NCBI RefSeq assembly: GCF_027912515.1
Contig: NZ_CP115464.1
Span: 1,302,001-1,366,000, forward strand
Reading direction: 5' to 3'
DNA: 64,000 nt
Source: Brevundimonas sp. NIBR10
GTDB lineage: Bacteria; Pseudomonadota; Alphaproteobacteria; Caulobacterales; Caulobacteraceae
Below, one piece after another: positions 28,137-57,833 of this stretch. The stretch's first letter is position 1. The number at the start of each line of letters is the position of its first letter. A program made the translations under genes and the position numbers. The notes beneath the pieces are model-generated. The model saw only the letters and a list, made by a program, of their open reading frames with translations, ran no database searches and was not told the origin of the DNA.

Positions 28137-28946
28137 ATGGCGGACTGGCTGGCGGCGATCATCCTGGGTCTGGTCGAGGGGCTGACGGAATTCATTCCGG
28201 TGTCCTCGACGGGCCATCTGTTGCTGGCCAAGAGCCTGATGGGGCTGGAGAACGAGCCCTGGGACACCTTCATCGTCATGATCCAGCTGGGCGCGATCCT
28301 GGCGGTGGTGGCCCTGTATTTCGGGCGGCTGTGGAAGGTGCTGATCGGCCTGCCGGGCAAGGATCCGGCGGCGCGGCGGTTCGCGATCTCGGTCTTGCTG
28401 GCCTTCTTCCCGTCGGCCCTGATCGGCCTGCTGTTCCATGATTTCATCAAGACGGTGCTGTTTAATCCCACCGTGGTCTGCGTCAGCCTGATCCTGGGCG
28501 GCATCGCCCTGATCGCCCTGGAGCGCTGGGCACCGCAGCCGCGCGAGCATGACGCCATGAAGTTTTCGGCGAAGACGGCGCTGGGCGTCGGCCTGTTCCA
28601 GTGTCTGTCGATCATCCCGGGCGTGTCGCGCAGCGGGGCCACCATCGTCGGCGGCCTGTTGCTGGGCGTGGACAAGCGGGCGGCGGCCGAGTTCTCGTTC
28701 TTCCTGGCCATCCCGACCATGGTCGGGGCGTTCGGGCTCGATTTCTGGGAGAGCCGCGAGATGCTGACCGGCGACGTCCTGACCCTGATCGCCATCGGGT
28801 TCGTGGTGTCCTTCGTCAGTGGACTGATCATCGTGAAAACCATGCTGGATTTCGTGACCAAACACGGGTTCGCGCCGTTCGCCTGGTGGCGGATCGCGGT
28901 CGGGGCGGTCGGGCTGGCGTTGCTGCAAGCCGGCCTGATCGGATGA
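28137..28946 (+). CDS. uppP: Undecaprenyl-diphosphatase
   Basis: 269 aa, a polytopic inner-membrane enzyme that dephosphorylates undecaprenyl diphosphate to recycle the lipid carrier for peptidoglycan and polysaccharide synthesis. The two signature motifs are intact: EGLTEFIPVSSTGHLLL near the N-terminus and IIPGVSRSGATIVGGLLLG. About seven hydrophobic segments. The stop overlaps the next gene by four bases (ATGA), so it starts the putative operon with the nonulosonic-acid-like genes. Confidence 0.95.
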   Translation: MADWLAAIILGLVEGLTEFIPVSSTGHLLLAKSLMGLENEPWDTFIVMIQLGAILAVVALYFGRLWKVLIGLPGKDPAARRFAISVLLAFFPSALIGLLFHDFIKTVLFNPTVVCVSLILGGIALIALERWAPQPREHDAMKFSAKTALGVGLFQCLSIIPGVSRSGATIVGGLLLGVDKRAAAEFSFFLAIPTMVGAFGLDFWESREMLTGDVLTLIAIGFVVSFVSGLIIVKTMLDFVTKHGFAPFAWWRIAVGAVGLALLQAGLIG

Positions 28947-29653
28947 GCGACGTCCGGCCCGTGCTGGAGGCCGTCTGCGCTCACGTGATGGCGGACCTGC
29001 CCGCCATCCTGGCCCAGCGCCGGACGGTGACGTGGAAGCCGGACGGCAGTCCGGTCACCGAGGCCGACGTGCGGCTGGAGCGTGAAGTCCACGCCCTGCT
29101 GGAGGGGCGGCTGGGGTCGGTCAATCTGGTCGGCGAGGAGAGCTATGATCCTGCGGGCGGCACCGGGGCGGCGTCCTGGACCGCTGTGCTCGATCCGATC
29201 GACGGCACGGAGAATTTCTGTTCAGGCCTCAAGGAATGGGGCGTGTCCCTGTCGCTGTGGCGCGACGGGGGCCACCAAGGGAGCCTGTTGCTGTTACCCG
29301 AACTGGGGGAGCGGATGATGACCGGGGAACCGATCGAGCGGCACGTGTCGCGGATCACTGGCTTCTCGTCCTCGATCACGCCGGAACTGGCGCAACAGCT
29401 GGTCGGGGCGGGGGAGGCGCGAATCCTGGGGTGCGCGGTCTACAATCTGTATAATGTGGTGCGCGGGTCGCTGGCGCGGTTCGCCAACCCCAAGGGTGCC
29501 AAGAGCTGGGACCTGATGGCCGGGCTGATGCTGGCCAGAGAGCATGGATGCGACGTGACGGTGGAGGGACGACCCTATGACGGATCCTATCTCGAGCCTG
29601 ATCGCCGACATCGCTTCGACATACGCCACCGATACGATCTTCATCCTGGGTAA
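28943..29653 (+). CDS. Inositol monophosphatase family protein
   Basis: 236 aa. The family's metal-binding motifs are present: LVGEESYD (GEE), AVLDPIDGTENF (DPxDGT) and GAKSWDLMAGLMLAREHGCDV (WD near the end). Members hydrolyse sugar or nucleotide phosphates, such as inositol phosphate or 3'-phosphoadenosine phosphate. The starting ATG overlaps uppP, and the 3' end overlaps the next gene by 77 bases in another frame, so the last 25 residues (GSYLEPDRRHRFDI onward) are encoded by shared DNA. Because it sits inside the NeuB/NeuA-like group, dephosphorylation of a sugar-phosphate intermediate is a reasonable guess but unproven. Confidence 0.85.
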   Translation: MSDVRPVLEAVCAHVMADLPAILAQRRTVTWKPDGSPVTEADVRLEREVHALLEGRLGSVNLVGEESYDPAGGTGAASWTAVLDPIDGTENFCSGLKEWGVSLSLWRDGGHQGSLLLLPELGERMMTGEPIERHVSRITGFSSSITPELAQQLVGAGEARILGCAVYNLYNVVRGSLARFANPKGAKSWDLMAGLMLAREHGCDVTVEGRPYDGSYLEPDRRHRFDIRHRYDLHPG

Positions 29654-31103
29654 GGGACCGTCGGTCGATCAGATCGATCCCCGGATATTCTCCGGCGCCC
29701 TGGTCATCGGCCTGAACGACGCAGAGCGGATCGCGCCGGTCGATATCAGTGTCTTCCATGACGGCTGGGTCGCCGAGAGCGTGGCCGACAATGGATTCAA
29801 GTCGCGGGCCTATGTGACCTCGACCCCGATGACGGCACCGAACCGCACGGTCATCCGGCTGGATCATGCGCCGCTGAGCCAGGAATCCAGCGACCTGATG
29901 ATGCAGCGGTTCCAGGCCGGACAGCTGCAGATCGAGGACATTCTGTTCATCACCGCCCTGCAGATCGCGCGGCGGGTCGCGGCGCAACGGGGTCGGCCCC
30001 AGACGGTCTATATGGTCGGTCTGGATTTCCAGTACGACGGCGGCCACGCCTATTCGGAGCGCGTGGGTGCGGACTTCTCGCACGCGCTCGACGAGGAGCG
30101 TCGGCTGGTGTTCGGGATGCAGGAGTATTTCTTCCTGAACGCCCTCTATGTGCTGAAGGGCTCCGAGCTCGATGTCCGGCACGTGGGGGCCAAGAGCTTC
30201 AGCGCCCTGTCGCAGACCGAGCTGAATCATGCCTTCGGCGGCGGTGCCGATCAGGACCGGCCTGCAGGGTCCGGCGTCGCTGTGGTGGCCGAACTGACGA
30301 CCAACCATTTCGGCGATCGGCTGAGGCTCGAGCGGATGATCCGGGCGGCGCGGGCGGCGGGCGCGGACTATGTGAAGCTTCAGAAGCGTGACGTCGACAG
30401 CTTCTACAGCGCCGAGCAACTGGCGGCGCCCTATGCGTCACCGTTCGGCAAGACGTTCGGTGACTATCGGCGGCAGCTGGAGCTGACGCCGGACGATTTC
30501 GGATTCGTGGCGGCGATGTGCGCGGAGCTGGGCCTGGGGTGGTTCGCCTCGGTGTTGGACAGGCCGTCGTTCGACCTGGTCGCGGCGCTGGAGCCGGCGA
30601 TGGTCAAGCTGCCGTCCACCATCTCCGAACACCGGGATTTCCTGGCGGCGGTGGCGGGCTCGTACGAGGGGACGATCGTGCTGTCGACCGGCATGACCGA
30701 TCAGGCCTATGAGGACTGGGTGCTGAAGACCTTCACCCGGTGCGAGCGGCTGGTGCTGATGCAGGCCAACTCGGCCTATCCGACCCGGGCCGAAGACTGC
30801 AATATCGGGGTCGTGCGCCACTATCACGAACTGTCCCGGACCGATTCCCGCATCGTCCCCGGCTATTCCAGCCACGACTTCGGCTGGATGGCCTCGGCGC
30901 TGGCCGTCGCGGCGGGTGCGCGAATGGTCGAGAAACACGTCAAGCTGGGCAACACCGACTGGGCCCATTTCGATGCCGTGGCGGTCGACCTGACCACACC
31001 GGACTTCAAGGACTACGTCGATCATGTTCGTCAGGCCGAACGGATCGTGGGACAGGACAGGAAGGCGATCATGCCCAGCGAACATCACAAATACTGGCCA
31101 TGA
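29577..31103 (+). CDS. Fusion of GT42/Maf-like domain and NeuB-type synthase
   Basis: 508 aa. The N-terminal 215 residues begin IFILGKGPSVDQIDPR (GKGPS at 25-29) and contain VYMVGLDFQYDGGHAYSE, echoing the AGNGPSL and SGIDFYQNG motifs of CstII-like GT42 sialyltransferases and of Maf/DUF115 proteins. From about 235 the protein is a divergent NeuB-type TIM barrel: VVAELTTNHFGDRLRLERM, DYVKLQKRD, IVLSTGMT, QANSAYPT, GYSSHD and VEKHVKLGN (His454). It ends without the C-terminal SAF antifreeze domain of typical sialic acid synthases. The predicted reaction is PEP condensation with a sugar to form a nonulosonic acid; the fused domain's role is unknown. Confidence 0.8.
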   Translation: MTDPISSLIADIASTYATDTIFILGKGPSVDQIDPRIFSGALVIGLNDAERIAPVDISVFHDGWVAESVADNGFKSRAYVTSTPMTAPNRTVIRLDHAPLSQESSDLMMQRFQAGQLQIEDILFITALQIARRVAAQRGRPQTVYMVGLDFQYDGGHAYSERVGADFSHALDEERRLVFGMQEYFFLNALYVLKGSELDVRHVGAKSFSALSQTELNHAFGGGADQDRPAGSGVAVVAELTTNHFGDRLRLERMIRAARAAGADYVKLQKRDVDSFYSAEQLAAPYASPFGKTFGDYRRQLELTPDDFGFVAAMCAELGLGWFASVLDRPSFDLVAALEPAMVKLPSTISEHRDFLAAVAGSYEGTIVLSTGMTDQAYEDWVLKTFTRCERLVLMQANSAYPTRAEDCNIGVVRHYHELSRTDSRIVPGYSSHDFGWMASALAVAAGARMVEKHVKLGNTDWAHFDAVAVDLTTPDFKDYVDHVRQAERIVGQDRKAIMPSEHHKYWP

Positions 31104-31819
31104 ACGTCGCCGCTCTGATGATCGGGCGGGGCGGCAGCTCCTTGCCCGACAAGAATATCCTGCCGGTACTTGGCGTGCCGCTGCTGAAATGGACGGCGTC
31201 GGCGGCGAGGCGCAGCCGGTATGTGTCTCGCTTCTATGTCAGCAGCGACTGCCCTCGAATCCTCGACGTCGCCGGAGAAGCCGGCTACGCGCCGATCGTT
31301 CGCCCCCCTGAACTCGCGTCAGATACGGCGCAGAGTTCGGACGCGGTGCGACATGCGATGCCCATCATGGAGGCCGACGGACCGGTCGATATCCTGGTGG
31401 TCCAGCACGCCAATGTCGGCACGATCCATCAGGATCAGATCGACGCCTGTATCGATATCCTGATCGCTCGTAGCGACCTCAGCGCCGTGATTCCCAGCCA
31501 TGAGATGGCTGAGTACCACCCGATGCGGGGCAAGGCCGTGAACGCAGACGGCACCCTGGCGCCGTTCATCCCGGCCGCGACATTCGTTTCGGCGAACCGG
31601 CAAGACCTGCCCAAATGCCTTTTCTTCGACCATTCCTTCTGGGTTCTGAGAGGGCGATCCGCCGTGTTCGACCCCGAGGGTCAGGCTCCTTGGCCCTGTA
31701 TGGGACGACGCATCGCGCCGTACGAGACCTCGGGCTGCCTGGATGTCCATACCCTCGACGATCTTGAGAAGACGGCGGTGTGGCTGAGGGCCCACGACAT
31801 CGCGCCGCCTGATTTCTGA
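31100..31819 (+). CDS. Divergent CMP-sugar cytidylyltransferase (NeuA-like), copy 1
   Basis: 239 aa, starting at the ATGA overlap with the synthase gene. The nucleotide-binding start MNVAALMIGRGGSSLPDKNILPVLG is a variant of the IPARGGSKGIPRKNI motif of acylneuraminate cytidylyltransferases. Further NeuA-like segments are RFYVSSDCPRILDVAGEAG and RPPELASDTAQSSDAVRHA. The end CLDVHTLDDLEKTAVWL corresponds to the usual D-I-D-T-x-D-D region. Predicted to activate a nonulosonic acid as its CMP form. Context with the NeuB fusion supports this. Confidence 0.82.
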   Translation: MNVAALMIGRGGSSLPDKNILPVLGVPLLKWTASAARRSRYVSRFYVSSDCPRILDVAGEAGYAPIVRPPELASDTAQSSDAVRHAMPIMEADGPVDILVVQHANVGTIHQDQIDACIDILIARSDLSAVIPSHEMAEYHPMRGKAVNADGTLAPFIPAATFVSANRQDLPKCLFFDHSFWVLRGRSAVFDPEGQAPWPCMGRRIAPYETSGCLDVHTLDDLEKTAVWLRAHDIAPPDF

Positions 31820-31836
31820 AGCGGGACCGCAAGACC

Positions 31837-32541
31837 ATGACGTTGAAGAGTGCCCCCACGGTCGTCGCGGTCGTTGCAGCCAAGGCGGTGTCGACCCGCG
31901 TGCCGCGAAAGAATTTGCGGGAGTTCCACGGGGGACGGTCGCTGCTCGATATCAAGATCGAGCAGTTGCTGTCCGCAGCTCACATCAGCGAGGTCTATGT
32001 GTCGAGCGACTCCCCGGAGGCCCGGCGAATTGCCGAGGCGGCAGGGGCCCGGTTTGTCGAGCGGGACCCTCACCTGACACGGTTCGAGACCCCGTGGGGG
32101 GACGTCATCGACGGCATCCTTCAAGACATACCGGTGTCGCCCGAAACCTTCATCGCCTGGTGCCCGATCACGAGTCCGCTGTTCACCCGCTACGACGAGG
32201 CGATCGACATGCTGGGCCAGGGAGATATCGACAGCGTGATCTCGGTGACACGCGACCAACGGTTCTTCCTGAGCTCAGAGTTTCAGCCCATCAACTATCA
32301 GTGGGGTGTGTGGCATCCCTACAGCCAGAATCTGAAGCCGCTGCACATCCACAACACCGCCATCTCTCTGGCGCGCAAGGCGGATATCCTGCGCAATCGC
32401 TATCTGATCGGCGAGAAGCCGGGGTTCCTGATCACCGACACGGTGGAGGGTATCGACATCGACACGATGGACGAATTCGAGATGGCGCAGTTCTTCTACG
32501 CCCGGCGGTTAAGACAGGGTGGCCCGTCCGCGAAGACTTGA
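31837..32541 (+). CDS. Divergent CMP-sugar cytidylyltransferase (NeuA-like), copy 2
   Basis: 234 aa. The N-terminus VVAVVAAKAVSTRVPRKNLREFHGG carries the S-x-R-x-P-x-KN nucleotide-binding motif, followed by VYVSSDSPEARRIAEAAG and a C-terminal VEGIDIDTMDEFEMAQ, the classic IDIDT-DE metal-binding segment. It shares little sequence with copy 1, so the pair is not a recent duplication. Two cytidylyltransferases in one operon may serve two sugars, or one may have an altered role. It ends 66 bases before the LuxR-type gene. Confidence 0.85.
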   Translation: MTLKSAPTVVAVVAAKAVSTRVPRKNLREFHGGRSLLDIKIEQLLSAAHISEVYVSSDSPEARRIAEAAGARFVERDPHLTRFETPWGDVIDGILQDIPVSPETFIAWCPITSPLFTRYDEAIDMLGQGDIDSVISVTRDQRFFLSSEFQPINYQWGVWHPYSQNLKPLHIHNTAISLARKADILRNRYLIGEKPGFLITDTVEGIDIDTMDEFEMAQFFYARRLRQGGPSAKT

Positions 32542-32607
32542 GCCGGCCTGCGGGACTGGACCTGCGGGCGATCACGCATCATCGTCGCGCGACAGAGGCG
32601 AGGGGCC

Positions 32608-33057
32608 ATGCCGGACAGACTGACATCGCAGGAACTGAGGTGCGTCCTGCTGGCCGGCGACGGTCTCAGCGACAAGGAGGTCGCGGTCGCGCTGGGGATC
32701 GCGCCGCGGACCGTCGGCAACAATCTGCACCGCGCCTATCGCAAGCTCGGCGTCTCGGACCGCAAACTGGCGGCACGACGTCTGAGTAGCGATTACTCAG
32801 AGCATCCATTGCTCATAGACCACCTCACCGGACGGGCCGCATCACGGACGGACACCGGGGCGGTTCTGATCGATGCTGGTGATCTGAGGTCCGTGGAGGG
32901 GCCGCTGATGCGGGCCTATCGCGGACTGGGGGCGTGGCGGACACCGCCGCGGCGTCACCCCCGCATCGTCCTGATCCTGGGCGGCGCGGTGGCCATCGTG
33001 ATCGTCCTTGCGATCACGGGTCAGATCATGGCGGGCATCAACGACTTCCTCGGCTGA
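32608..33057 (+). CDS. LuxR-type helix-turn-helix protein with C-terminal membrane helix
   Basis: 149 aa. Residues 4-60 form a LuxR-family HTH (LTSQELRCVLLAGDGLSDKEVAVALGIAPRTVGNNLHRAYRKLGV). After a linker there is one transmembrane segment near the C-terminus (RIVLILGGAVAIVIVLAITGQ). No receiver or ligand-binding domain exists. The layout implies a DNA-binding domain held at the inner membrane. A GAGGGGCC ribosome-binding region precedes the ATG. It is followed by two small genes in the same direction and may form an operon with them. Confidence 0.8.
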   Translation: MPDRLTSQELRCVLLAGDGLSDKEVAVALGIAPRTVGNNLHRAYRKLGVSDRKLAARRLSSDYSEHPLLIDHLTGRAASRTDTGAVLIDAGDLRSVEGPLMRAYRGLGAWRTPPRRHPRIVLILGGAVAIVIVLAITGQIMAGINDFLG

Positions 33058-33086
33058 TCCGATCCTCCCTCGAAAGGCCGACCTCC

Positions 33087-33482
33087 GTGACTCCATCCGC
33101 CGTCATCCTGAAGAACCCCCAGGCCGCCGTCTCGGCCGCCAACGCCATCGCGGCGGACCTCAACGCACTCGAGCGCCACGTCGACGAGGCCCTGATGCGG
33201 GCCCATGCCATCGGCCAGACCCTGTCGTCGGGCCGCATGGCCGCCGGTATTTCGGCGACCTTCGGCCAGGCCATGTTCGACGACCTGGCCAAGGTCATTC
33301 CCGATGCGACTTCCCTGCGCGGCAGTGTCGTCGCCATGCATATGCGAATGCAGCGTCGCGCCGATTCCCTGGGCGTCAGCCCGACCCTGGGGATCGAGGA
33401 GAAGCCGCCGGAGAACGGCCCGGAGACGCCCTGGCCCAAGGCGGAACTTCTGCCGACGCCGGCCCGCGTCGCCGCAGAGTAG
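33087..33482 (+). CDS. Hypothetical helical protein (131 aa)
   Basis: 131 aa from GTG 33087, preceded by GAAAGG. The sequence is predominantly helical (AVSAANAIAADLNALERHVDEALMRAHAIG, ATFGQAMFDDLAKVIPDATSLRG) and has a proline-rich C-terminus (EKPPENGPETPWPKAELLP). No membrane segment, signal peptide or known motif is seen. It sits between the membrane-anchored LuxR-type protein and a four-helix membrane protein, three bases before the latter. Function unknown. Confidence 0.6.
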   Translation: MTPSAVILKNPQAAVSAANAIAADLNALERHVDEALMRAHAIGQTLSSGRMAAGISATFGQAMFDDLAKVIPDATSLRGSVVAMHMRMQRRADSLGVSPTLGIEEKPPENGPETPWPKAELLPTPARVAAE

Positions 33483-33485
33483 CCT

Positions 33486-33902
33486 GTGCTCGCGACCGCC
33501 ATCTATGCGTTTAATCTGTTCGCTTTCGCGTTGCTCCTGTGGCGCGGACGGTGGGCGGACAGGATCGCGGTCGCGGCCTTCGCTCTGGCGATCGTGGTGG
33601 AACCCCTGGCCGGGGCTCTCACGGTCGGCTCCTGGCGGACCGGCACGAGTGTTCTGAACCTGGCGCTGTTCGTGATCGTCTGGTGGCTGGCCGAGCGGGC
33701 CGACCGATGGTGGCTGGTCTTCGTGGCCAGCGCCCAGTTCGTCATCGTGGCCACGCACGCCATGCCGCTGATGTCCGACAACGCCTTCGTGTGGTCGGGG
33801 ATCGCGCTGCGGAACGGTCTCTATATTCTCATCAGCCTGCTGTTCCTCGTCGGGGCCTTCGAGGTCTGGGCGGACCGGCGCATCCGTCTGGAAGCCCGCT
33901 AG
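33486..33902 (+). CDS. Small four-helix membrane protein
   Basis: 138 aa from GTG 33486. Four hydrophobic segments are visible, including YAFNLFAFALLLW, VLNLALFVIVWWLAE, WWLVFVASAQFVIVA and LRNGLYILISLLFLVGAFEVW. It ends with a basic tail (DRRIRLEAR). The gene starts three bases after the previous stop, so it is likely co-transcribed. I do not recognise the family; a membrane partner for the anchored LuxR-type protein is possible but speculative. Confidence 0.6.
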   Translation: MLATAIYAFNLFAFALLLWRGRWADRIAVAAFALAIVVEPLAGALTVGSWRTGTSVLNLALFVIVWWLAERADRWWLVFVASAQFVIVATHAMPLMSDNAFVWSGIALRNGLYILISLLFLVGAFEVWADRRIRLEAR

Positions 33903-33955
33903 GCTCCACGCGATCGACGGTTTCCGGGACGGCCAGGCAAGCCCTGGACAACTCC

Positions 33956-34057
33956 ATGCTCCCCAAGACGACCATCACCCTGTTCGCAGGGCAGCGCGGC
34001 TCTGCGCCGGACGCGGTTGCGACATCCCTGCACGTCGATCGATTGGTGCTCGCATGA
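33956..34057 (+). CDS. Possible 33-aa leader ORF
   Basis: A short frame starting MLPKTTITLFAGQRGSAPDA and ending in TGA, which overlaps the acyltransferase ATG as ATGA. It has no obvious ribosome-binding site and may be a chance ORF. The overlap geometry, the same as the true stop-start couplings elsewhere in the window, is the only reason to list it. Confidence 0.25.
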   Translation: MLPKTTITLFAGQRGSAPDAVATSLHVDRLVLA

Positions 34058-34886
34058 GCACGGCCATAGACATTCCGGTGGACGAGGCGCTGATCGAACG
34101 CTTCCGGCGCGCGCGCATCCTGTTCTCCTATGATCGACGCGAGGTCGCCGAGGGGCGGGGATGGCTGTCGGATCACGAGACGATCCAGGTCCCCGGATCG
34201 ATCAGAATCGAAGGACCCAGCGCATTCTACGGTGGCCCTTATGCGCCCAGCCGATGGGCCGTGCCGGGAGGCCTTTGCACCATGGGTGCCGCATCCTATT
34301 CGCACTCGCCGCTGCCCGCAGGCCTCAACGTCGGACGCTATTGCTCGATCGGCCGAGGTCTCAGGTTCATCGATTTTGCCCACCCGGCCGAATGGGCCTC
34401 GACCTCAGTCGCCTTTTTCAGGCCCAGCGACACCCCGTTCACGCCGCCGTTGCGCGACGCCCTGGACGCGGTCTCCGAGGAGGCCGGGTCGCGGTTCAGT
34501 CCCCTGCCGTACGCATCACGGCAGGGGCAGGCCTATCCCGTCATCGGTCATGACGTCTGGATTGGTGACCAGGTCGCGATTGCCCTCGGCGTCACGATCG
34601 GAAACGGCGCGATCATCGCCACGGGTGCGGTCGTGACGACCGATGTCGAACCCTGGACCATTGTCGGAGGCGTTCCCGCCAAGCCGATCCGCAAGCGGTT
34701 CGCACCGGACGTGATCGCGCGTCTGAGGGCCTCGCTCTGGTGGACCTACCCTTGGCATGCGTTTCACGGCATGAGCCGGACGGACCCCGACCTGTTCGCC
34801 GATCAGGTCGTTGCGGCCGCCATGGCCGGCCGCCTGAAACCCTGGACGCCCGAGACGGTGACCCTGGAACCGGCCGAAGTCGTTCC

Positions 34887-36191
<1,305 letters not shown>

Positions 36192-44105: not shown

Positions 44106-45113
44106 ATGACGGTGTCTTTGAGTGGGAAACGCGTCTGGGTCTCGGGCCACCGGGGTATGGTCGGCTCGGCCATTGTCCGCCGCTTGCAAGAGGAAAATTG
44201 CGAGATCCTCACGGCGGGTCGGAACGACCTCGACCTCACCGACTCCGCCGCCGTTGATGCCTGGGTTCAGACCAACAAGCCCGATGTGTCAATCGTGGCT
44301 GCCGCCAAGGTCGGCGGCATCATGGCGAATGACAGTCTGCCAGCCGTCTTTCTGTACCAGAATCTGATGATCTCGGCGAACGTGATCCACGCCTCCTATC
44401 GGGGCGGGGTCGAGAAGCTGCTGTATCTTGGGTCCTCCTGCATCTATCCGCGCCTGGCTCCCCAGCCGATCCACGAGGACTCGCTTCTGACCGGGCCGCT
44501 GGAGCCGACCAACGAATGGTATGCGATCGCCAAGATTGCCGGCATCAAGCTCTGCCAGGCCTATCGCAAGCAGTACGGGGCGGATTTCATCTCGGCGATG
44601 CCGACGAACCTGTTCGGACCCGGAGACAACTACGATCTGAACTCCAGCCACGTCATGCCGGCCCTTATACGAAAGATGCATGAGGCCAAGCTGGCGTCCT
44701 CGCCTTCTGTAGAGGTGTGGGGTTCGGGCACGCCGTTGCGCGAATTCATGTACGTCGACGATCTCGCCGACGCCTGCATTTTCCTGACCAAGACCTATTC
44801 CGACGCGCCTCATGTGAATGTGGGGTCCGGTGACGAGATTTCGATCCGGGACCTGGCGCATCTGACTGCCAAGGTGGTCGGGTTCGAAGGGGATCTGGTG
44901 TTCGATGCGTCCAAGCCGGATGGGACGCCGCGCAAGCTGATGGACTCCACCAGGCTTCACGACATGGGATGGTCGGGAAAGCATGGTCTCGAGGACGGTC
45001 TGCGTCTCGCCTACCAAACCTTCCTGGCCGAGGGGGCCCGCGGTGAGGTTCGCGCCATCAATGACGGTATTTCGACCTTTGAACCCACTGGAGCGCGTGC
45101 GGTAAACTCATGA
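44106..45113 (+). CDS. fcl: GDP-L-fucose synthase
   Basis: 335 aa. The N-terminus [20 protein letters not shown] and the motifs [42 protein letters not shown] (catalytic YxxxK) and [21 protein letters not shown] are distinctive of Fcl/WcaG. It epimerises and reduces GDP-4-keto-6-deoxymannose to GDP-L-fucose, so the locus probably makes both GDP-fucose and GDP-rhamnose from the gmd product. ATG 44106 is favoured by GAGGGAG eight bases upstream; an in-frame GTG lies one codon earlier. Confidence 0.95.
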
Positions 45114-46348
45114 GCACGAAAAAGAAGAAGGCCGGTGGGTTGGGGCGAACCCTGCTGATCTGCGATCCGACCTGCGTTCTGCCGTATGGACACACGGTCC
45201 CGGCGCTGAATCACTTCCGCAAGGATCTGGGCGGCGATTTCGACGCCGTTCATTGCCTGGCATCAACCGGATTGCCGAAAGAGGTCGCGGCCGAGTTCGG
45301 CTTCGATCGCAGGTTCACCTTCCTGTACAATCGATACATTCCGATCATGTCGCCGGCGCAGTCTAACCAGATTGTGAACCAGCATCCGGCCTTTGACGAC
45401 GACTATGCCGATCCCTTCGAGCGCGTGGCGACTTACGACGCGGCGGGAACGCTGGCGGACTACAAGATCACAAGCGACGACGTCATCTTCTTTCCGGGTG
45501 CCGACTTCTATGGCGTGATCGGGTTCCTGAATGCGCTGGCGGATGCCCCGCAGACTGAGAGGCCCACGGTCTACATTCGCCTGATCGGCGTCCTCGAAGG
45601 CTCGTCGCCGTACTACGATGACGGTACAGCGCAGTTCTTCAAGCGGGTCCGGGCGGCTTCGGAGGGGGGGCTGGACATCCGCCTTTCGGCGGAGACGCCG
45701 GAGTATGCCGATCTGATCAGCGGTCTGACCGGCCTCACGACCTTTGTAACGCCCTATCCCGAGACGTCCGAACAGGTTCCGCTACCGGATGGTGACGACT
45801 TCACCGTCCTCTGTGCCGGGTCCGCACGGCTCGACAAGGGGTTCCTTGATCTCTTCGGAATCGCGCGTGAAAGCTTGGCGAACCCGCCCAAGAAGTTGGG
45901 CCTGAAGTTCGTGACCCAGACCCTGCCCCTCAAGGGGCACGAGCAATGGGATTCCTACACGTCCCAACTGTACGCCCTGAGAGGCGTGACCCTGCTCGAC
46001 CCGGTCATCACGTCCGAGAAGATGCATGATCTCTACCGGGACAGCGACATCGTGCTCTTGCCCTATGCGAGGGACGTGTACCGGCTTCGGGGGTCTGCGG
46101 TGATGATGGAAGCGGCCAGCGTCGGCCGACTTTGCATCACCCTCAGAGGCACGGCCTTTGCACGACAGGTCGAGTACTACGGCCTCGGCGATCTGGTTGA
46201 TGAGCCCTCCCAGATGCCGGCCGCGATCCGGCGGCTGGCGAACGGCGGCCGCGAAGAAATGGCCGAGCGAATTCGACAGGCGAGAGCGCGGTTCTATCTG
46301 GACGTGCGTTGCTCCTATGAAAACTGGTTCCGGTCGGAGCGCGGGTGA
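45110..46348 (+). CDS. GT-B glycosyltransferase (GT4-like)
   Basis: 412 aa, starting in the ATGA overlap with fcl. The C-terminal half carries the nucleotide-sugar side of a GT-B fold: [20 protein letters not shown], then [30 protein letters not shown], an E-x7-E-like segment. The N-terminus [23 protein letters not shown] is a strand/loop/helix typical of group 1 transferases. It probably adds a sugar to the surface glycan. Donor and acceptor cannot be determined; nearby GDP-fucose or GDP-rhamnose synthesis makes these candidates. Confidence 0.82.
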
Positions 46349-47868
46349 TGAAACGTCGAATCCTTTACATCGGACACGCATTCCATCTCAGGACGCGGTC
46401 GAACCGGTTCATGCTCGATATCCTCGAGAAGGCGTTCGACGTCACGCTCGTCTACGTCGATCCAGACAAGCTGCACGAAACCAACTTTGACGTTTCGGCC
46501 GCCGACTACGACATAGCGGTCGTTTACCAGCTCGATTTCCTGGCTCCCATCTTCCTTGCCAAGGGGTTGCCCACCGTTGTCATCCCCATGTTCGACGGTT
46601 CCGAACACATGCCCGAGGGGCATTGGCAGATGGCGAACCAGGCGCGTTTCGTCGCCTTCTCGCGCCATCTGCATGTGAAGATCCAGCGGGCCGGCGGCAC
46701 CTCGCTGCTGGTAAAGTATTTCCCGAAGGTCTCGCCCAACCCCGTGCGGCGCATGAACAGCCTCAACGGCTTCTTCTGGGAACGGCGTCCCGACAGTCCG
46801 ATCAACACGCAGATGATTGCCAGGGTTATCGGCAGCCAGCTGGACAAGCTGCACATCCATCAGGCACCGGATATCCCGTGGACGACCGAGACGGCGCTGC
46901 CGGCCCAGTTCGGCAACACCGAGATCACCACATCGCAATGGTTCGAGAACGTTTCTGAACTGGACGACATCATGTCCCAGTCCAATGTCTATTTCGCGCC
47001 AAGGCTCAGCGAAGGTATCGGCATGGGCTTCCTCGAGGCCATGGCATCGGGAATGATGGTGATCGCGCACGATGCAAGCACCCATAACGAATACATCGCG
47101 AACTGGCAGAGCGGTATTCTCTATACATTGGGAATCGATGGCTCTCCCCATGTGAGCCCCGAACTCGCCTACGAACTCGGCATGAACGGCCGCCAATCCG
47201 TGGCCGAAGGCCGTGCAGCATGGCTTGCGCAGATTCCGGAGATGATCGACTGGATCGAAACCACGCCTGCGCCTGACATCGCAGAGGTCAATGCCTCGAT
47301 GCTGGCGAACGAGATTCCGAAGGCCTACCTCGCCGGCTTCGGATCCTATCTCCAGTTCCTGCGTCGCAGCACGCCGCTGATCCACAAGATGTCACCGGCC
47401 CTTGACGAGAAGCGGTCGCTGGCCCAACGGCCTGCGACCTTCCCGGACGACGACGAGGCCGGCCTCGTTCCCCGGTTGTCCAAGACCGTGATGGGGTTCG
47501 GGACGTCGGAGACAAGACCATATCTCGTCAGCGGCTGGTCGCACGATGAAGCCGGCTTTGTGTGGATGGACGGAACGGTCGGCGTAATCCGGTTCGCCAA
47601 CTCCGCCGAACTGAGCACCAGCACCTGCATGACGGTGACCTGTCACGCCCCCCAGTCCATCGTCGGACAAAAGCTGGCCGTCGTCCTGAACGGCTCGCTC
47701 TGCGGTTCGATCGACGTGGGGGACGCGACCCAGTCCACGACCTTCCCCCTGCCCGACGAGGGGCTGAGGAAATTCAATGAGATCAGGTTGTTCGCTGGGC
47801 AGGCCCTGACGGGCGGGGCCGATCCACGGGCGTTGAGTGTCGCGATAACCTCGATCATCTTCGAGTGA
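46348..47868 (+). CDS. Glycosyltransferase with C-terminal beta-rich domain
   Basis: 506 aa from ATG 46348, which overlaps the previous stop (TGATG). The GT-B part (about 1-330) ends with APRLSEGIGMGFLEAMASGMMVIAHDASTHNEYI, the EG-FLEAMA-G motif of GT4/GT1 transferases. From about 390 to the end lies a beta-rich domain (GVIRFANSAELSTSTCMTVTCHAP, AVVLNGSLCGSIDVGD, LSVAITSIIF), similar in layout to carbohydrate-associated modules elsewhere in this locus. A glycan-binding role is possible. It is translationally coupled to the Nudix gene. Confidence 0.82.
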   Translation: MKRRILYIGHAFHLRTRSNRFMLDILEKAFDVTLVYVDPDKLHETNFDVSAADYDIAVVYQLDFLAPIFLAKGLPTVVIPMFDGSEHMPEGHWQMANQARFVAFSRHLHVKIQRAGGTSLLVKYFPKVSPNPVRRMNSLNGFFWERRPDSPINTQMIARVIGSQLDKLHIHQAPDIPWTTETALPAQFGNTEITTSQWFENVSELDDIMSQSNVYFAPRLSEGIGMGFLEAMASGMMVIAHDASTHNEYIANWQSGILYTLGIDGSPHVSPELAYELGMNGRQSVAEGRAAWLAQIPEMIDWIETTPAPDIAEVNASMLANEIPKAYLAGFGSYLQFLRRSTPLIHKMSPALDEKRSLAQRPATFPDDDEAGLVPRLSKTVMGFGTSETRPYLVSGWSHDEAGFVWMDGTVGVIRFANSAELSTSTCMTVTCHAPQSIVGQKLAVVLNGSLCGSIDVGDATQSTTFPLPDEGLRKFNEIRLFAGQALTGGADPRALSVAITSIIFE

Positions 47869-48494
47869 ACAGCCCTCGATCGCTTGCGCCTGTCACAGCG
47901 ATCGAAACGGTCTATTCTGACTGGACCGAGCTGAAACGGGTGACGTTCACGCTGCGAAGCGGGCTGAGCGTCACCCGGCACGTCGAAGACCATGGTCGCT
48001 CGACAGCCGTACTGCCTTATGATCCGGAGCGGCGCTGCGCCTTGCTCGTGACGATGGCGCGTGCCCCCGTGATCCTGGCCGGTGTCGACGACCTGCTTGA
48101 GGTCCCGGCCGGGCGCGCCGATGAGCGCGAGAGCCAAGAGGTCGCCAGAGCAGAAGCGTTCGAAGAGTGTGGCGTTCGACTGGGAACGCTTGAGCGGATC
48201 ATGGAAGCCTGGACCATGCCCGCAGTCTCGTCCGAGCTCAGTGCCTTGTTCATAGCGGAGTACAGCCGCGGGGACCGAGTCGCTCCGGGCGGCGGCCTGT
48301 CCGAAGAGGGCGAAGAAATCACCGTCGTCGAGCTAGGCCTGGATGCGCTCTGGTCCCGTCTCCTTTCGGGAGGTCTGCCCGATCTCAAGACGGCATTCCT
48401 GCTTCAGGCGCTGAGGCTGCGTCGGCCCGAGCTTTTCTCAGGCCCGATCCAAGACGGCCTGCCATCCCGGGGCACCGGATCCCTGAACCAGTGA
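47865..48494 (+). CDS. Nudix hydrolase
   Basis: 209 aa. The Nudix box is recognisable but altered: LEVPAGRADERESQEVARAEAFEECGV. Relative to G-x5-E-x7-REUxEExGU the loop is one residue shorter and the conserved Arg is Ala, while the EE-x-G core is intact. ADP-ribose or GDP-mannose-type hydrolases have this kind of N-terminal beta lead (KRVTFTLRSGLSV). In a GDP-sugar locus, hydrolysis of nucleotide sugars is a plausible role. GTG 47865 overlaps the preceding stop. Confidence 0.8.
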   Translation: MNSPRSLAPVTAIETVYSDWTELKRVTFTLRSGLSVTRHVEDHGRSTAVLPYDPERRCALLVTMARAPVILAGVDDLLEVPAGRADERESQEVARAEAFEECGVRLGTLERIMEAWTMPAVSSELSALFIAEYSRGDRVAPGGGLSEEGEEITVVELGLDALWSRLLSGGLPDLKTAFLLQALRLRRPELFSGPIQDGLPSRGTGSLNQ

Positions 48495-48677
48495 GACGAG
48501 GCCGGTTCAAGGTCTGCGGAAACCGGGCAAATAACTCGCGACCCCGCCGCACCTGACGCCGGATAGACTTGGAGCGCCGGCCGATCACGCTCCACCAATC
48601 GCGTTCCGGTGCGATCGAGGTCTTGAGCAACACGTGGGTCAGAAGCGCCAAACGGCCCTGCCGAAATTGATCATGCT
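48495..48677. other. Intergenic region between convergent Nudix and GHL6-like genes
   Basis: 183 bases with no clear terminator. A minus-strand frame is open across it (LTHVLLKTSIAPERDWWSVI), with somewhat protein-like sequence but no start or conserved neighbour. It may be a decayed gene fragment; nothing firm can be called. Confidence 0.3.
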
Positions 48678-50333
48678 CTAGGCACGACCACCTTCGATCA
48701 CCGCGAATGGCCCGGTGAGCTCGAACTCGATGGTCTGGGGCGTGGCGAGTGACTGATCCGCATAGCCCCAGACCCGGTGGGTCCGCAAAGATTCGGGCAA
48801 CCGTACGCGAACGCCGCCAGCATACCCCGATCCCTTGTTGAGGACATGGCGTCCCAATTGCTCCCCCTTCTCGACGCTGTTCCAGAAGAAAAGGCGCCAG
48901 GCGCCATCCGGGGCAAGGAGCCCCCGAACGAAAACCGACCAGTGACGCTCGATCTTCATTCCTGACCAGGGGGTGACAATGGCGGACTTTTCGTAGGCCC
49001 CGAGCAGTCGGTCGACGAGATCCTGATCGACGTCCCAATTGGCCCGGATCATCCGTGCCGCGAAGTCCGGATCGTCATGGCCGATGACCGACACTCCGAG
49101 ATCGAGGGCCCTTTCGATCACGCGCTGCCCCGCCGAGGACAGCGGGCGTCCGTCGGGTACGATCAGGGTCCGGATCTGGGCCAGGCGGGCATCGCATCGT
49201 GCCGTCGCCGCCGTTCCTACGTTCAGTCCGGCCACACTTGCGCTGAGCATGGCTCCTCGCAGGCGCGCGAAATCCTGACTCTGTTGGAGCGCCTCGCTGT
49301 CCGCAAGGCACAGGACGTCCGGCTCAAACGACGGCGCCGTCATCGTGGCTGCCAGTTGCAGGCGCTCGATCTCGGCTCGCATCTCGTTGAGAGATGCGGT
49401 GTAGGAGGTATCGATCCGGCCGGTCAGCGCCATCGGGAAATAGACGTGGACCGACTCGTCCGCAGCCAACAGCGGCGCGACCTCGTGGACGAGTTGATCG
49501 GGTGCCTTCGGATACTTCCGGCCTCCGCCCTCGGGCTCGACGAACAAGGGCATGACCACCTCGCGCTCCTGACCCTCGTCGAGAACCACCGCTGTTTCGA
49601 TCCAGGCATCCAGCGGACCGAAGAAGGGTGGAAGGTCGGATGTGATCAGCGAAAGCCCCTTGGGCGGTGCGATCGGATGGCGGAAGGTGAAGGCTAGGTT
49701 CACCGAACACTTCAGGTCTTTCACCTGATGGTCGAGAAAGGTCGCCAAGGCCAGGATGTATTCCGAGTAGCTGGCAACGGTCGCTCGTCTCTGGTCAGCG
49801 ATCGGTGCGTTCTCGATCGCGCCGGCGATACCGAGCAGCCGCATGGCCGCATCGCTCCTGAACTGGCCGGCGGCTTCGCCGACCGCCCAGTAGTCGCCGT
49901 CAAAGAAGAAGCCGTCCGGATCATATCGCTCGACGAGCTCGGCCAGGAATGGCTTCAGCCATTCCTGCACATAGGGCGAGGATGGCTCGATCCGGCCAGT
50001 CGGAATGCCGTCGGGCCGAATACGCTCCCAATCCGGCCGTTCCTTGGTCAGGACGTCATTGCGCAGCGTGCTGACGTAAAGCGCGAAATCGACCTTTCGA
50101 TCTCGAGCCAGTCCGCGCCAGATCTCGGGCAGATCGTGTTTAAGACCCGGGGCTACTGTCGATATCGCAGACGGGAATTGCGCCAGGCCGTCATGGCCCA
50201 AGGCAAAGACTGTCAGTCGGGTCGGCCGGACGTCGTCGAGGAACTGTGCAAGTTCGGCGACGTCCAGATCATGCAGGGCGTAATCGTCCAACCCCGAATG
50301 GAGATGGTTGTCGATCAGAATGCTAATGTTCAG
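48678..50333 (-). CDS. GHL6-like TIM-barrel glycoside hydrolase
   Basis: 551 aa if begun at the CTG overlapping the upstream stop (CTGA). The N-terminal strand ISILIDNHLHSG leads into a GHL6/GH29-like barrel: RLTVFALGHDG, DRKVDFALYVSTLRND, a SPYVQEWLKPFLAELVERYDPDGFFFDGDYW segment with the acidic D-G-D site, and HPIAPPKGLSLITSDL. The C-terminal third (WRLFFWNSVEKGEQLGRHVLN) is beta-rich. No signal peptide is evident, so cytosolic action or export by another route is possible. No ATG or GTG lies near the beginning in-frame without a long overlap into the preceding gene. The target could be the fucose or rhamnose glycan made here. Confidence 0.75.
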   Translation of the reverse strand: MNISILIDNHLHSGLDDYALHDLDVAELAQFLDDVRPTRLTVFALGHDGLAQFPSAISTVAPGLKHDLPEIWRGLARDRKVDFALYVSTLRNDVLTKERPDWERIRPDGIPTGRIEPSSPYVQEWLKPFLAELVERYDPDGFFFDGDYWAVGEAAGQFRSDAAMRLLGIAGAIENAPIADQRRATVASYSEYILALATFLDHQVKDLKCSVNLAFTFRHPIAPPKGLSLITSDLPPFFGPLDAWIETAVVLDEGQEREVVMPLFVEPEGGGRKYPKAPDQLVHEVAPLLAADESVHVYFPMALTGRIDTSYTASLNEMRAEIERLQLAATMTAPSFEPDVLCLADSEALQQSQDFARLRGAMLSASVAGLNVGTAATARCDARLAQIRTLIVPDGRPLSSAGQRVIERALDLGVSVIGHDDPDFAARMIRANWDVDQDLVDRLLGAYEKSAIVTPWSGMKIERHWSVFVRGLLAPDGAWRLFFWNSVEKGEQLGRHVLNKGSGYAGGVRVRLPESLRTHRVWGYADQSLATPQTIEFELTGPFAVIEGGRA

Positions 50334-52186
50334 TGTCTGACCCCATGGTTGATCGGAACTCGTATCGTGGTTCCGCCGCCGCCTGCCCGCACGATCTTGG
50401 ATTCGCTCGACTGCAGCTGTTGTGACAGTCGAACGAGATTGGCATCGAACGCGCAACCTGTCCCGGTTTTCGCTCCCGTGGGGCTCAGGCGATCGGTCCG
50501 TGCCGGCATGGTCTGCGTCGGACCGCTGAACGCGGGCCAGCCCCGGCCGATGCCCCCGCCTTGGGATCGCAGGGCGTGGCGGTCATCCAGCACCAGAACT
50601 TCGGCCTCACCGTCGACGAAACTGACGGAACAGGGTCTCTCTCCGGCGGCGAGAACGGCCGGTCCTGCGATGGCTTTGCAGAACCGGTCCAGCACGAATC
50701 TGGCATCGACCCCACCGTTGTCCAGCCAGTCCTCAGCGCTCGCACTGGCGAGGATGAGGGCCGGCGTGGACGCCGTCCGACCGATGAGAACATTCTCGTA
50801 GATCGCCAGGTCGACCTCGCGCCAATAGTCCGGCGTAACGACGATCATCTCCCAGAAATTGCTGAGACGCGGGGGTTCAAACGGGTAGTTGTAGAGTTCG
50901 CGGTAGGCGAAATCCCCCAGAGACTGACTGTTGATGCTGAGGCCACAGAGCTCAAGCGACGCCGTCGTCAGGCTGAGGACGATGCCGCAGTTCTCTGCGC
51001 CCGCAGGTGCGTGCGACAAGGCCTGCAACGCAAGGGCAGAAGAGCCGTCATTGAATCTCAACGGCCCAATGACGGTTTTGGGGCTGGGCGGTACGTCGGC
51101 TGAGAGTGACATCACCATCACGCTGGAGCCTTGGGACAGCAGGCCGTGCGCCAGACCCAGCAGGGTGCTCCAGAAATGCTGGTTTGGTGCAAAATATTTC
51201 TCGGTGAGTTCAAACTCTGTGGGCGACACCAGCACCTGCGTTTGAACCAGACGGTCGCGGTCCTTCGCTTCGCCGAAAAAGGACTGCGTCAGCATCTGCC
51301 CGGCGGGCAGGCCGCCCCACATCCGGTCCGCCAGACGTTTCGGCAGACCCGCATCGACTCGGCCGAACACATCCACAACCAGTCGGGCCAGGCCCAGAGC
51401 TTCCTGGCGAAGGTTGAACTCGAGATACTTCCAGTGGTCGCCGACGAAGACAAACTTTATCATGACCTCTGAACGACCAGTCAGACGGGCCGGGATCGTA
51501 AAACCGATATCCTCGTCGTGCCACCGAACGCCGTCGTGCGAACGTGGTAGTTCCTGAACCAGTTCGCCCTCGACCTCGATCGCAAGGGCCGTGCGCAGCT
51601 GGGCATTCATCCGTACTCGATGGTCCGCACCCGGCACCACCGGAAGGATGAGTTCCGCTCCGTCCAGCCCCCAACGGAAGGCCTTGTTGTGGAAGAAGCT
51701 CATGAAGGTCAGCCGACCTTCCCGGTAGGACCAACGATCCGCGATGAGGCCGCCATCGGTGCTGGAGCCAACGTTGACTTCATATCGGTAGGTGTGGCCT
51801 TCGAAGTCGGTCTTGAAGACACGGGACGCCACCGGGACGACATCGTTCGACATATAGGGCGCGCTCGGCACCAGGATGATTTCTGAATCCTCCGGCAGGT
51901 TCAGATAGAGATCTGGATGCTGGTACGACGCATCGTCCTGTACGATCTGTGTCAGCAGCTTTCCGCTACGCGCCGAGTAGACCAGCCAGTTGAGTTCCAG
52001 CCGGTGCGAGAAAAGCTCGTTGAGTTTGATGCCGGTTGTGAAATGACGTGTCCGCAGATCGAACAGGATTCGGACGCATCCGGTGTGTTCGCTTTCAATG
52101 CGGTGCCGCAGGGGGGCCGTCATGACCTCGTCGGTAGGCGTCTCGACCAGAGCCTCGCCAAACACCGCTGCGGTGTCGTCCAACAT
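50330..52186 (-). CDS. Large unrecognised protein coupled to the GHL6-like gene
   Basis: 618 aa from ATG 52186, which follows GAGAGGGG at good spacing; an in-frame GTG six codons upstream is less likely. The N-terminal 300 residues are strand-rich (YRYEVNVGSS, TFMSFFHNKAFRWGLDGAELI, VMIKFVFVGDHWKYLEFNLR), consistent with beta-sandwich or lectin-like folds. A central helical-strand region follows (FWSTLLGLAHGLLSQGSSVMVM), and the C-terminus has ILASASAEDWLDNGGVDARF. No signal peptide, membrane helix or known motif is seen. Stop-start overlap with the hydrolase gene implies a shared function. Confidence 0.7.
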   Translation of the reverse strand: MLDDTAAVFGEALVETPTDEVMTAPLRHRIESEHTGCVRILFDLRTRHFTTGIKLNELFSHRLELNWLVYSARSGKLLTQIVQDDASYQHPDLYLNLPEDSEIILVPSAPYMSNDVVPVASRVFKTDFEGHTYRYEVNVGSSTDGGLIADRWSYREGRLTFMSFFHNKAFRWGLDGAELILPVVPGADHRVRMNAQLRTALAIEVEGELVQELPRSHDGVRWHDEDIGFTIPARLTGRSEVMIKFVFVGDHWKYLEFNLRQEALGLARLVVDVFGRVDAGLPKRLADRMWGGLPAGQMLTQSFFGEAKDRDRLVQTQVLVSPTEFELTEKYFAPNQHFWSTLLGLAHGLLSQGSSVMVMSLSADVPPSPKTVIGPLRFNDGSSALALQALSHAPAGAENCGIVLSLTTASLELCGLSINSQSLGDFAYRELYNYPFEPPRLSNFWEMIVVTPDYWREVDLAIYENVLIGRTASTPALILASASAEDWLDNGGVDARFVLDRFCKAIAGPAVLAAGERPCSVSFVDGEAEVLVLDDRHALRSQGGGIGRGWPAFSGPTQTMPARTDRLSPTGAKTGTGCAFDANLVRLSQQLQSSESKIVRAGGGGTTIRVPINHGVRH

Positions 52187-52432
52187 CCAGTCCCCTCTCG
52201 GCACTCGTAACGCGTGTCGGACGCCAGCCTGACCGCTCGACCCTTAGCCGTCAGCGTCAGATCAGCGCAAGGTCTTTTCGGGGTCGGCGAGCCATATCCC
52301 GATCGCGGGCGCAGGAGCCTCCCGGACCGGTGCGGCGGAAAGGGGAAATACAGGTCTGACCGGATGGTTCTGCCTTTCCATCTTGCAGGTGGAACGGGTA
52401 AGGGGAGGCAGGCAAGACAGGATCAGCGTTGC
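52187..52432. promoter_or_regulatory. Divergent intergenic region upstream of the exporter operon
   Basis: About 246 bases between the 618-aa protein gene and the ABC permease. It should hold promoters for both directions. A G/A-rich ribosome-binding region (AAGGGGAGGCAGG around 52400-52412) precedes the permease, though at longer than ideal distance from ATG 52433. No clear promoter motif. Confidence 0.35.
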
Positions 52433-53212
52433 ATGGCGTTTGCCGCGGCAGTGAAGAAGCACACCACGCTGATCAGCGCACTAGTCATGCGCGAGGTCAC
52501 AACCCGTTTCGGGCGTGAGGGGATAGGGTTCCTGTGGGTGATCGGCGAGCCGCTGATGTTCTGCGTCGGCGTGTTGATCATGTGGGGCTTCATCAAGCCC
52601 GAGTACGAACACGGCGTACGCGTCGGACCCTTTGTCATGACAGGCTATATGTGTCTGCTGATCCTGCGGCACATGGTGACGGGCAGCATCGGCGCGGTCC
52701 AGGCTAACGTCGGTCTGTTTCACCACCGACAGGTCAGCGTCAACCACGTCATGTTCGCTCGGAACCTGTCCGAGTTCATGGGGGGCAGTCTCGCCTTCGT
52801 GATCGTCTACGCCGCGCTGATCATCCTCGGAGAATGCGAGCTGCCGTGGAACTGGATGCTGTTCTATGGGGGCTGGTTCCTGAACGCCTGGGTGGCATTC
52901 GGCCTGTCCTACCTTTTCGCAGCGCTTTCCGTCCGGTTCGAAATCATGGAGCGGATCGTCCCCGTCGCGACCTATGCGATGATCCCGGCATCCGGCTGTT
53001 TCACCATGGCGTCCCTGATTCCCGACAAGTACAGGGAGGGCTATCTCCTGATTCCCATGCCGCACGGGGTCGAGATGGTCCGCGGCGCGGTTTTCGGTGA
53101 GTTCGTACACGTCTACTACCACCCCTGGTATGCTTTTGCCTGGGGGGCAGTGCTGCTGTTCTCCGGGATCGTTCTCCTCTCTGACGCCAAGGACCGTGTT
53201 CTAATCGACTGA
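52433..53212 (+). CDS. ABC-2 type polysaccharide export permease (KpsM-like)
   Basis: 259 aa with six hydrophobic segments and the ABC-2 membrane layout. HTTLISALVMREVTTRFGREGIGFLWVIGEPLMF is the family's N-terminal amphipathic coupling region (MREV-T-RF). The C-terminal segment LIPMPHGVEMVRGAVFGEFV has the PHG motif common in KpsM/RkpT permeases. It probably forms an exporter with the KpsT-like ATPase and the KpsE-like protein in the next two genes. The exported glycan is the product of this locus. Confidence 0.92.
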   Translation: MAFAAAVKKHTTLISALVMREVTTRFGREGIGFLWVIGEPLMFCVGVLIMWGFIKPEYEHGVRVGPFVMTGYMCLLILRHMVTGSIGAVQANVGLFHHRQVSVNHVMFARNLSEFMGGSLAFVIVYAALIILGECELPWNWMLFYGGWFLNAWVAFGLSYLFAALSVRFEIMERIVPVATYAMIPASGCFTMASLIPDKYREGYLLIPMPHGVEMVRGAVFGEFVHVYYHPWYAFAWGAVLLFSGIVLLSDAKDRVLID

Positions 53213-53256
53213 CGTCGATTGTGCGTGCTAAGCCGGGCTGCGCCCATGGAACTCAT

Positions 53257-57722: not shown

Positions 57723-57833
57723 GGAAAGGCCGGCGCGTCGCCGTCCGAACGACGCACATCACGAGCGCATCCAAACCCCTTATACATTACAGGCCGGCTT
57801 GGCGGGCGCGCTCTCATCCCGTACTGAACCGGC

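Follow-up and report, generated by a model that had tools for sequence, protein, structure and literature searches.

The pathways to Kdo (3-deoxy-D-manno-octulosonic acid; KdsA-KdsC-KdsB) and, in mammals, to N-acetylneuraminic acid (Neu5Ac) by way of Neu5Ac-9-P (NANS-NANP-CMAS) are both built on condensation with phosphoenolpyruvate (PEP), dephosphorylation, and activation with cytidine monophosphate (CMP). KdsC acts on Kdo-8-P and NANP on Neu5Ac-9-P, and both are phosphatases of the haloacid dehalogenase (HAD) type. Canonical nonulosonic acid clusters carry aldose-making enzymes in addition to the synthase. Their synthases, of the NeuB, PseI, and LegI type, have a PF03102 barrel and a C-terminal antifreeze-like (SAF) domain, and the SAF domain of the partner subunit supplies key substrate-binding residues, according to the consulted text of PMC7591256. 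The window analysed here, a stretch of 64,000 nucleotides from Brevundimonas sp. NIBR10 (contig NZ_CP115464.1, positions 1,302,001 to 1,366,000), contains a fusion gene for a synthase of another build. It has the same barrel and the same metal- and PEP-binding residues as the canonical enzymes. In contrast, it lacks the SAF domain, has lost the equivalent of the glutamate E134 of NmeNeuB, carries an extra N-terminal domain, and often lies next to a phosphatase gene. The fusion is a real, conserved, and apparently mobile architecture within a known enzyme family, and its sequence suggests that it is most likely a synthase for a 2-keto-3-deoxy (ulosonic) acid destined for surface polysaccharide. 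A literature search by titles and abstract openings, with most subscription journals outside its scope, found no description of the fusion.

The fusion gene: The gene occupies 29577..31103 of the forward strand as an uninterrupted open reading frame (ORF) of 508 amino acids with an ATG start, and it is backed by its PF03102 match, its relatives, and a structure model. The N-terminal domain comprises residues 1-222 (29577..30242, forward), with GKGPS at residues 25-29 and MVGLDFQYDGGHAYSE at residues 146-161. The NeuB barrel comprises residues 254-495 (30336..31061, forward), and a conserved tail of residues 496-508 (31062..31103, forward) takes the position of SAF in canonical enzymes. PF03102 matches residues 254-495 with an E-value of 5.8e-42 and 144.2 bits, against a Pfam cut-off of 22.1, whereas residues 1-227 have no significant match in Pfam. 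The NCBIfam models for N-acetylneuraminate synthase (TIGR03569, 116.1 bits against a cut-off of 399.65) and pseudaminic acid synthase (TIGR03586, 102.4 bits against 340.25) match the barrel only. The initial annotation, which described a GKGPS-motif domain and a divergent NeuB barrel in one chain, is borne out by the intact ORF and the PF03102 match. Its suggestion to search and model the two parts separately yielded a NeuB barrel by profile and a Maf/MptE/GT42-like fold by structure prediction.

The protein ends 13 residues past the Pfam NeuB match. The SAF model PF08666 has no match in the fusion gene, while the same scan detects the SAF domain of the other, canonical NeuB of this genome beside its barrel (G000:C1:1370047-1370205). 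Relatives of the fusion were collected as 63 loci from one scan of one-genome-per-species contigs. In 62 of them 19 residues or fewer lie between the end of the match and the stop, so that a SAF domain cannot fit; the remaining locus, L043, has 102. The missing C-terminal SAF domain, already noticed in the window, is thus confirmed. The matched stretches are without in-frame stops in 61 of the 63 loci, which rules out a frameshift or assembly artefact as the origin of the fusion and upholds it as genuine. The stop-bearing copies, L063:10001-11536 with six stops and L043:442-2001 with one, are both from Nesterenkonia and may reflect sequencing error or decay.

The barrel finds PseI (8h2c, E 3.4e-14) in Foldseek, and NeuB is also matched. 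Residues E239, K267, Q269, K344, S347, Y401, S431, H433, H454, and D466 are invariant in all 51 sequences. Their counterparts in NmeNeuB are, in the same order, E25, K53, Q55, K129, S132, Y186, S213, H215, H236, and D247, with D466 paired to D247 by hand. The metal-binding histidine pair (H433 and H454, for H215 and H236) and the PEP-binding lysine and serine (K344 and S347, for K129 and S132) are thus kept in all 51. The equivalent of E134 is I349 in 51/51, and the equivalent of N184 is a serine in the fusion, as it is in PseI. The tail residues K496, E502, H504, K505, and Y506 are also identical in 51/51. Given the family and the kept active-site residues, PEP condensation as such is very probably carried out by the barrel. 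A changed sugar substrate would be the natural reading of these sequences, because the SAF domain that binds substrate from the partner subunit of canonical NeuB is absent and E134 is lost. The 290-residue chain of a Leptospira NeuB (6ncs) aligns with the fusion barrel at a TM-score of 0.80 on the target. It is likewise a NeuB barrel and looks too short to hold a SAF domain, so a SAF-less NeuB is probably not unique to the fusion. In contrast to the fusion, it has no N-terminal domain, and its E134 equivalent is Asp, not Ile.

The N-terminal domain: The AlphaFold2 model of this domain has a predicted local distance difference test score (pLDDT) of 89.8 and a predicted template modelling score (pTM) of 0.90. 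VIA-align, whose listing does not rule out the families missing from it, and Foldseek both assign the predicted structure to the Maf/MptE/GT42-like fold, and hhalign gives a probability of 92.5 against one Maf/MptE-like domain. The fold is thus shown by prediction. The GT42/Maf-like character proposed in the initial annotation therefore stands for the fold, but not for the family profiles. PF06002 (GT42) is listed for 0/43 members at E up to 1 and has no match in the window's genome at E 1e-3, and PF01973 (Maf/MptE-like) is listed for 6/43 with a best E of 0.04, below the gathering score. A sequence-profile search of solved structures with the domain gave no match up to E 10. Comparison with a single CST-I protein in hhalign gave a probability of 48.9 over 33 columns only; the GT42 side of this comparison is one sequence, because a search with L083 scored no GT42 relatives at E 1e-3.

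The Maf flagellin glycosyltransferase 5mu5, with its MptE-like/DUF115 domain, is alike in fold, whereas the fusion stays below the PF01973 cut-off and is joined to a synthase. The GT42 sialyltransferases Cst-I and Cst-II are also alike in fold, but the fusion has no PF06002 match, and by hand alignment the position of the catalytic histidine does not seem to be conserved. This histidine, H188 after the lid of Cst-II, would correspond to residue 181 in an alignment made by hand and without superposition, and the position is mostly M, L, I, S, P, or T. The archaeal 6-hydroxymethylpterin pyrophosphokinase MptE/HPPK (8sd5) shares the fold as well, while the fusion has no family match above cut-off and a different partner domain. 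Since MptE and thiamine pyrophosphokinase are kinases of this kind, the N-terminal domain could be a kinase or pyrophosphokinase that prepares the sugar for condensation. This is quite unlikely: no MptE family match exceeds its cut-off, thiamine pyrophosphokinase families are absent from the Pfam lists of 43/43 members, and the proposed chemistry does without a kinase step.

An alignment of 43 N-terminal domains has 18 invariant positions, including G25, K26, G27, N47, D48, G148, D150, and F151. According to the alignment and the predicted secondary structure, they lie mostly in loops after strands, where relatives bind nucleotide. The domain may bind CMP, CMP-ulosonate, or another nucleotide, and so control or help the SAF-less synthase; this would be its most likely role, at a little under even odds. 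It could instead be a structural stand-in for SAF that caps the barrel or holds the oligomer together and has lost its own ligand. The domain is met with a SAF-less barrel in 63 loci (61 stop-free), and among proteins of about 127-404 amino acids, the range searched, only 5 entries have it without a full barrel. Two of these were inspected: P0121 continues into the start of a NeuB barrel and P0124 is a fragment. The domain also changes faster than the barrel, with a mean column identity of 53% (43 rows) against 68% (24 rows). The invariant loop positions are not obviously needed by a pure cap, and the stand-in is judged improbable.

Neighbouring genes: An inositol-monophosphatase-family phosphatase gene of 236 amino acids lies at 28943..29653 of the forward strand (PF00459, 77.5 bits against a cut-off of 27). 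Its closest solved relative is histidinol-phosphatase 5yht (E 1e-8), and its translation contains the DPIDGT and WDLMAG motifs. It is proposed to be an ulosonate-phosphate (or sugar-phosphate) phosphatase. The gene overlaps the fusion gene out of frame by 77 nt (29577..29653, forward). Such an overlap is found in 47/64 sequences (63 loci and the window), in one phase throughout, and 37 of the 47 are 71-95 nt long as counted from the matched start of the fusion. The codons GGT-AAG of the invariant Gly25-Lys26 (29649..29654, forward) contain the phosphatase stop TAA (29651-29653). Of the 47 overlapping sequences, 26 form the stop from GGT-AAR codons of this GKG motif, a count to which no probability is attached as the sequences are mutually related. 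Elsewhere in these genes fewer than half of the glycine codons are GGT, with L019 as the one exception. In the three Escherichia coli copies and the one Enterobacter copy inspected, the overlap is only 1-4 nt. The long overlap is kept from Prochlorococcus to Brevundimonas, which argues that the phosphatase and fusion products may be made together.

A CMP-sugar synthetase-like gene of 239 amino acids (31100..31819, forward; PF02348, 45.1 bits against 22.6) overlaps the end of the fusion gene by ATGA, and its closest solved relative is the CMP-Neu5Ac synthetase 6ifd (E 1.2e-17). A second such gene of 234 amino acids follows in tandem (31837..32541, forward; PF02348, 42.5 bits against 22.6), and a hexapeptide (CatB-like) O-acetyltransferase-like gene lies at 34054..34950 (forward, PF00132). 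Of 63 sequences, 53 have a phosphatase within 4.5 kb of the fusion, 47 a cytidylyltransferase, and 11 a hexapeptide acetyltransferase, counting profile hits up to E 1e-3 with L063 excluded and L043 kept. One E. coli capsule locus has a CatB-related gene between the cytidylyltransferase and the phosphatase. In L055 a weak phosphatase-like tail (35 amino acids, E 0.02) overlies the start of the fusion.

The proposed pathway shares the logic of the Kdo and Neu5Ac-9-P pathways, but employs a phosphatase of the inositol-monophosphatase family and a synthase with a transferase-fold domain. In the first step the NeuB barrel would join PEP to an aldose, free or phosphorylated, taken from ordinary metabolism. 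With a phosphorylated aldose, the phosphate would then be stripped from the product by the overlapping phosphatase, a step that gene linkage and the KdsC and NANP models make slightly more probable than its absence. The neighbouring cytidylyltransferase would next activate the acid as a CMP-sugar, which is probable. Finally, a separate glycosyltransferase, differing between loci, would add the acid to the glycan, and this is fairly likely. Taken as a whole, a compact pathway from an ordinary sugar (phosphate) to a CMP-activated 2-ulosonic acid, with synthesis supported by an N-terminal domain that binds a nucleotide or nucleotide sugar, is given an even chance.

Precursor supply: About 37 kb downstream of the fusion, just past the end of the window, the same genome carries a second cluster, of legionaminate type and apparently complete (L086, G000:C1:1364000-1380000). 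It contains NeuB with SAF and NeuC by profile, and adjacent ORFs were assigned by eye to NeuA, an aminotransferase, an acetyltransferase, and a PtmE-like protein. Where a canonical NeuB is present as well as the fusion, an aldose enzyme adjoins the canonical gene in 3/3 genomes, namely NeuC in G000 and G505 and PseC in G503. In three genomes with the fusion as the only NeuB (G446, G258, and G504, a Pectobacterium with locus L024), NeuC (TIGR03568) and PseC (TIGR03588) stay below cut-off in 3/3. Four capsule stretches have, by annotation and dTDP-rhamnose genes aside, these precursor genes: a cytidylyltransferase (unnamed in L067), the phosphatase, the fusion, and in one an acetyltransferase. 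Together these two results point to a candidate substrate drawn from ordinary metabolism, either an aldose or its phosphate. NanE, which would supply N-acetylmannosamine 6-phosphate (ManNAc-6-P), occurs in 1/6 genomes, the fusion-only G258.

Transferases near the fusion: PF07388 polysialyltransferase-like genes lie downstream of the fusion in L004 and L018, with relatives in L050 and L052. An MptE-like protein with tetratricopeptide repeats (TPR) lies upstream in L054, with relatives in L045 and L062. In L066 and L069 the scanned proteins were transferases of the GT2, GT92, and GT1 types, a methyltransferase, a Capsule_synth protein, the cassette partners, and two without a match. In the window, polysaccharide genes downstream of the fusion gene group (45110-61384) include group 1 and GT61 transferases, an ABC-2 permease, an ATP-binding cassette (ABC) ATPase, and a Capsule_synth protein, as well as a Wzz-like protein below cut-off. 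A separate transferase gene is thus often present, which lowers the need for one within the fusion. This bears on the idea that the N-terminal domain is itself an active CMP-ulosonate glycosyltransferase, using the product of its partner domain after activation by the cytidylyltransferase. The shared fold notwithstanding, neither PF06002 nor PF01973 is above cut-off in any of the 43 members, the Cst-II histidine position is variable in the hand alignment, and four loci have polysialyltransferase-like genes of their own. One domain of 222 residues that has gained no acceptor region would moreover have to serve the polysaccharides of E. coli, Nesterenkonia, and Prochlorococcus. A transferase role for the domain is therefore rated as unlikely.

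The idea that one transferase family adjoins the fusion at every locus was rejected, as groups F17, F18, and F22, the E. coli 339-amino-acid protein, and the Prochlorococcus 443-amino-acid protein have no convincing hhalign match to each other. F17 and the proteins of about 600 amino acids beside the E. coli and Enterobacter plasmid copies form one family. F17 proteins (about 480-850 amino acids) are found near the fusion in seven loci (L066:8840-10630, L067:8762-10585, L026, L027, L029, L033, and L058), ranging from a cyanobacterial metagenome-assembled genome (MAG) to enterobacteria, and both members scanned in Pfam (L066 and L033) were without a match. Another protein, F15, of about 660-690 amino acids, occurs near the fusion in Actinobacteria (L030:13453-15528, L035, L044, L046, and L065), with TPR repeats in the sole one scanned, L030.

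Several observations weigh against the proposed pathway and the supporting role of the N-terminal domain. The invariant pocket residues of this domain are as compatible with catalysis as with binding, and the whole-protein model (pLDDT 86.7, pTM 0.75) does not give the relative placement of the two domains. A phosphatase homologue was not found within 4.5 kb in 10/63 sequences (nine Nesterenkonia and one Garicola); in two of these, L037 and L043, no more than 450 nt separate the start from the locus end. Eight of the ten (L032, L037, L038, L040, L041, L043, L047, and L055), and thus 8/63 in all, had no cytidylyltransferase hit within this distance either. The test for NeuC and PseC covers six genomes, the fusion-only side being three drafts, and PseB, PseG, PseH, and the Leg enzymes were outside the search. 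The fusion-only genomes G258 and G504 do have NeuC-family hits of 96 and 85 bits (cut-off 236) and best PseC-family hits of 359 and 362 bits (cut-off 424). By eye, the PseC-family gene of G504 sits between a UDP-glucose dehydrogenase-like and an ArnC-like transferase gene, and because of these neighbours it is probably ArnB.

The fusion could be a synthase that has diverged in sequence but makes ordinary sialic, legionaminic, or pseudaminic acid, its precursors coming from other parts of the genome. Its nearest solved relatives include PseI and NeuB, databases name it N-acetylneuraminate synthase, the PseC-family hits come within 65 bits of the cut-off, and CMP-sialic acid is among the possible precursors of the new E. 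coli group 3 capsule loci in the consulted text of Hong et al. (PMC10433991). On the other hand, the scores are far under the NnaB and PseI equivalog cut-offs, E134 and SAF are gone, and NeuC and PseC are above cut-off in 0/3 fusion-only genomes. An ordinary synthase is thus held to be improbable. These alternatives concern mostly the N-terminal domain or the substrate, and they are not mutually exclusive with an ulosonic acid synthase fed by ordinary metabolism, so the likelihoods given are not shares of one whole.

Distribution: A protein search returned 865 relatives. The best 120 of these are 468-529 amino acids long, with 92-100% query coverage and 59-96% identity, and PF03102 is present in 120/120. 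By record title, the 63 loci come from Alpha-, Beta-, and Gammaproteobacteria, Actinobacteria (Nesterenkonia, Garicola, and Demequina), Cyanobacteria (Prochlorococcus and a Synechococcales MAG), and a Deinococcales MAG. Even so, the fusion is rare: the N-terminal domain profile matches 2/398 genomes of the phylum, and the full-length fusion shows among the listed matches in 4/101 genomes of the genus, the window's own being included in both counts. Because of this patchy spread, horizontal transfer of the fusion between phyla is likely. A phage or viral origin was rejected: a scan of viral contigs gave 22 pattern matches with no confirmed relative, and 50,697 phage records held the NeuB half only, in two. 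When L003 is compared with window positions 31100-34950, the next genes after a 96% identical fusion drop to 58% and 73% identity. One cytidylyltransferase, the 58% identical copy, is found in L003, and the other of the window's pair was not found there. The sequences suggest a possible swap point directly after the fusion gene.

Escherichia coli: The fusion is present in 15/5,426 complete E. coli genomes, with 12 copies on chromosomes and three on plasmids, and also on a plasmid of Enterobacter roggenkampii. Three of the 15 E. coli contexts and the Enterobacter copy were inspected, and in 4/4 the neighbours are genes for capsule export and for rhamnose, arranged in group 3 order, as this order is described in the consulted text of PMC10433991. 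That text of Hong et al. (2023) reports new E. coli group 3 capsule loci, names an inositol beside CMP-sialic acid among the possible precursors, and states that structural data are lacking. Judged by annotation alone, these loci are taken to be partly the same genes as the fusion cassette. The same text refers to the K3 antigen, which has a 4-deoxy-2-hexulosonic acid, and describes the genetics of K3 as not yet determined; a later catalogue, in the text consulted, uses a K3 reference locus (PMC13171606). The K3 acid, known here from the title of the cited paper, was kept as no more than a weak lead to the product, because PEP condensation does not directly give a 4-deoxy sugar.

In its widest form the proposal comprises a further CMP-ulosonic acid route independent of NeuC/PseC-type enzymes, a 3-deoxy-2-ulosonic acid unassigned to any pathway, a transferase-fold domain acting as a catalytic or nucleotide-sensing partner, and a cassette that has moved between phyla, including into E. 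coli capsule loci. All of this together is doubtful. The fusion is in any case a clear test case for the role of a transferase-fold domain joined to a synthase. Database names such as N-acetylneuraminate synthase imply that the cells carry sialic acid, where they may be making another compound. Should the proposed pathway hold, the prediction of surface sugars must change for these bacteria, the 15 E. coli genomes among 5,426 complete ones included, and the unassigned acidic sugar could be sought directly.

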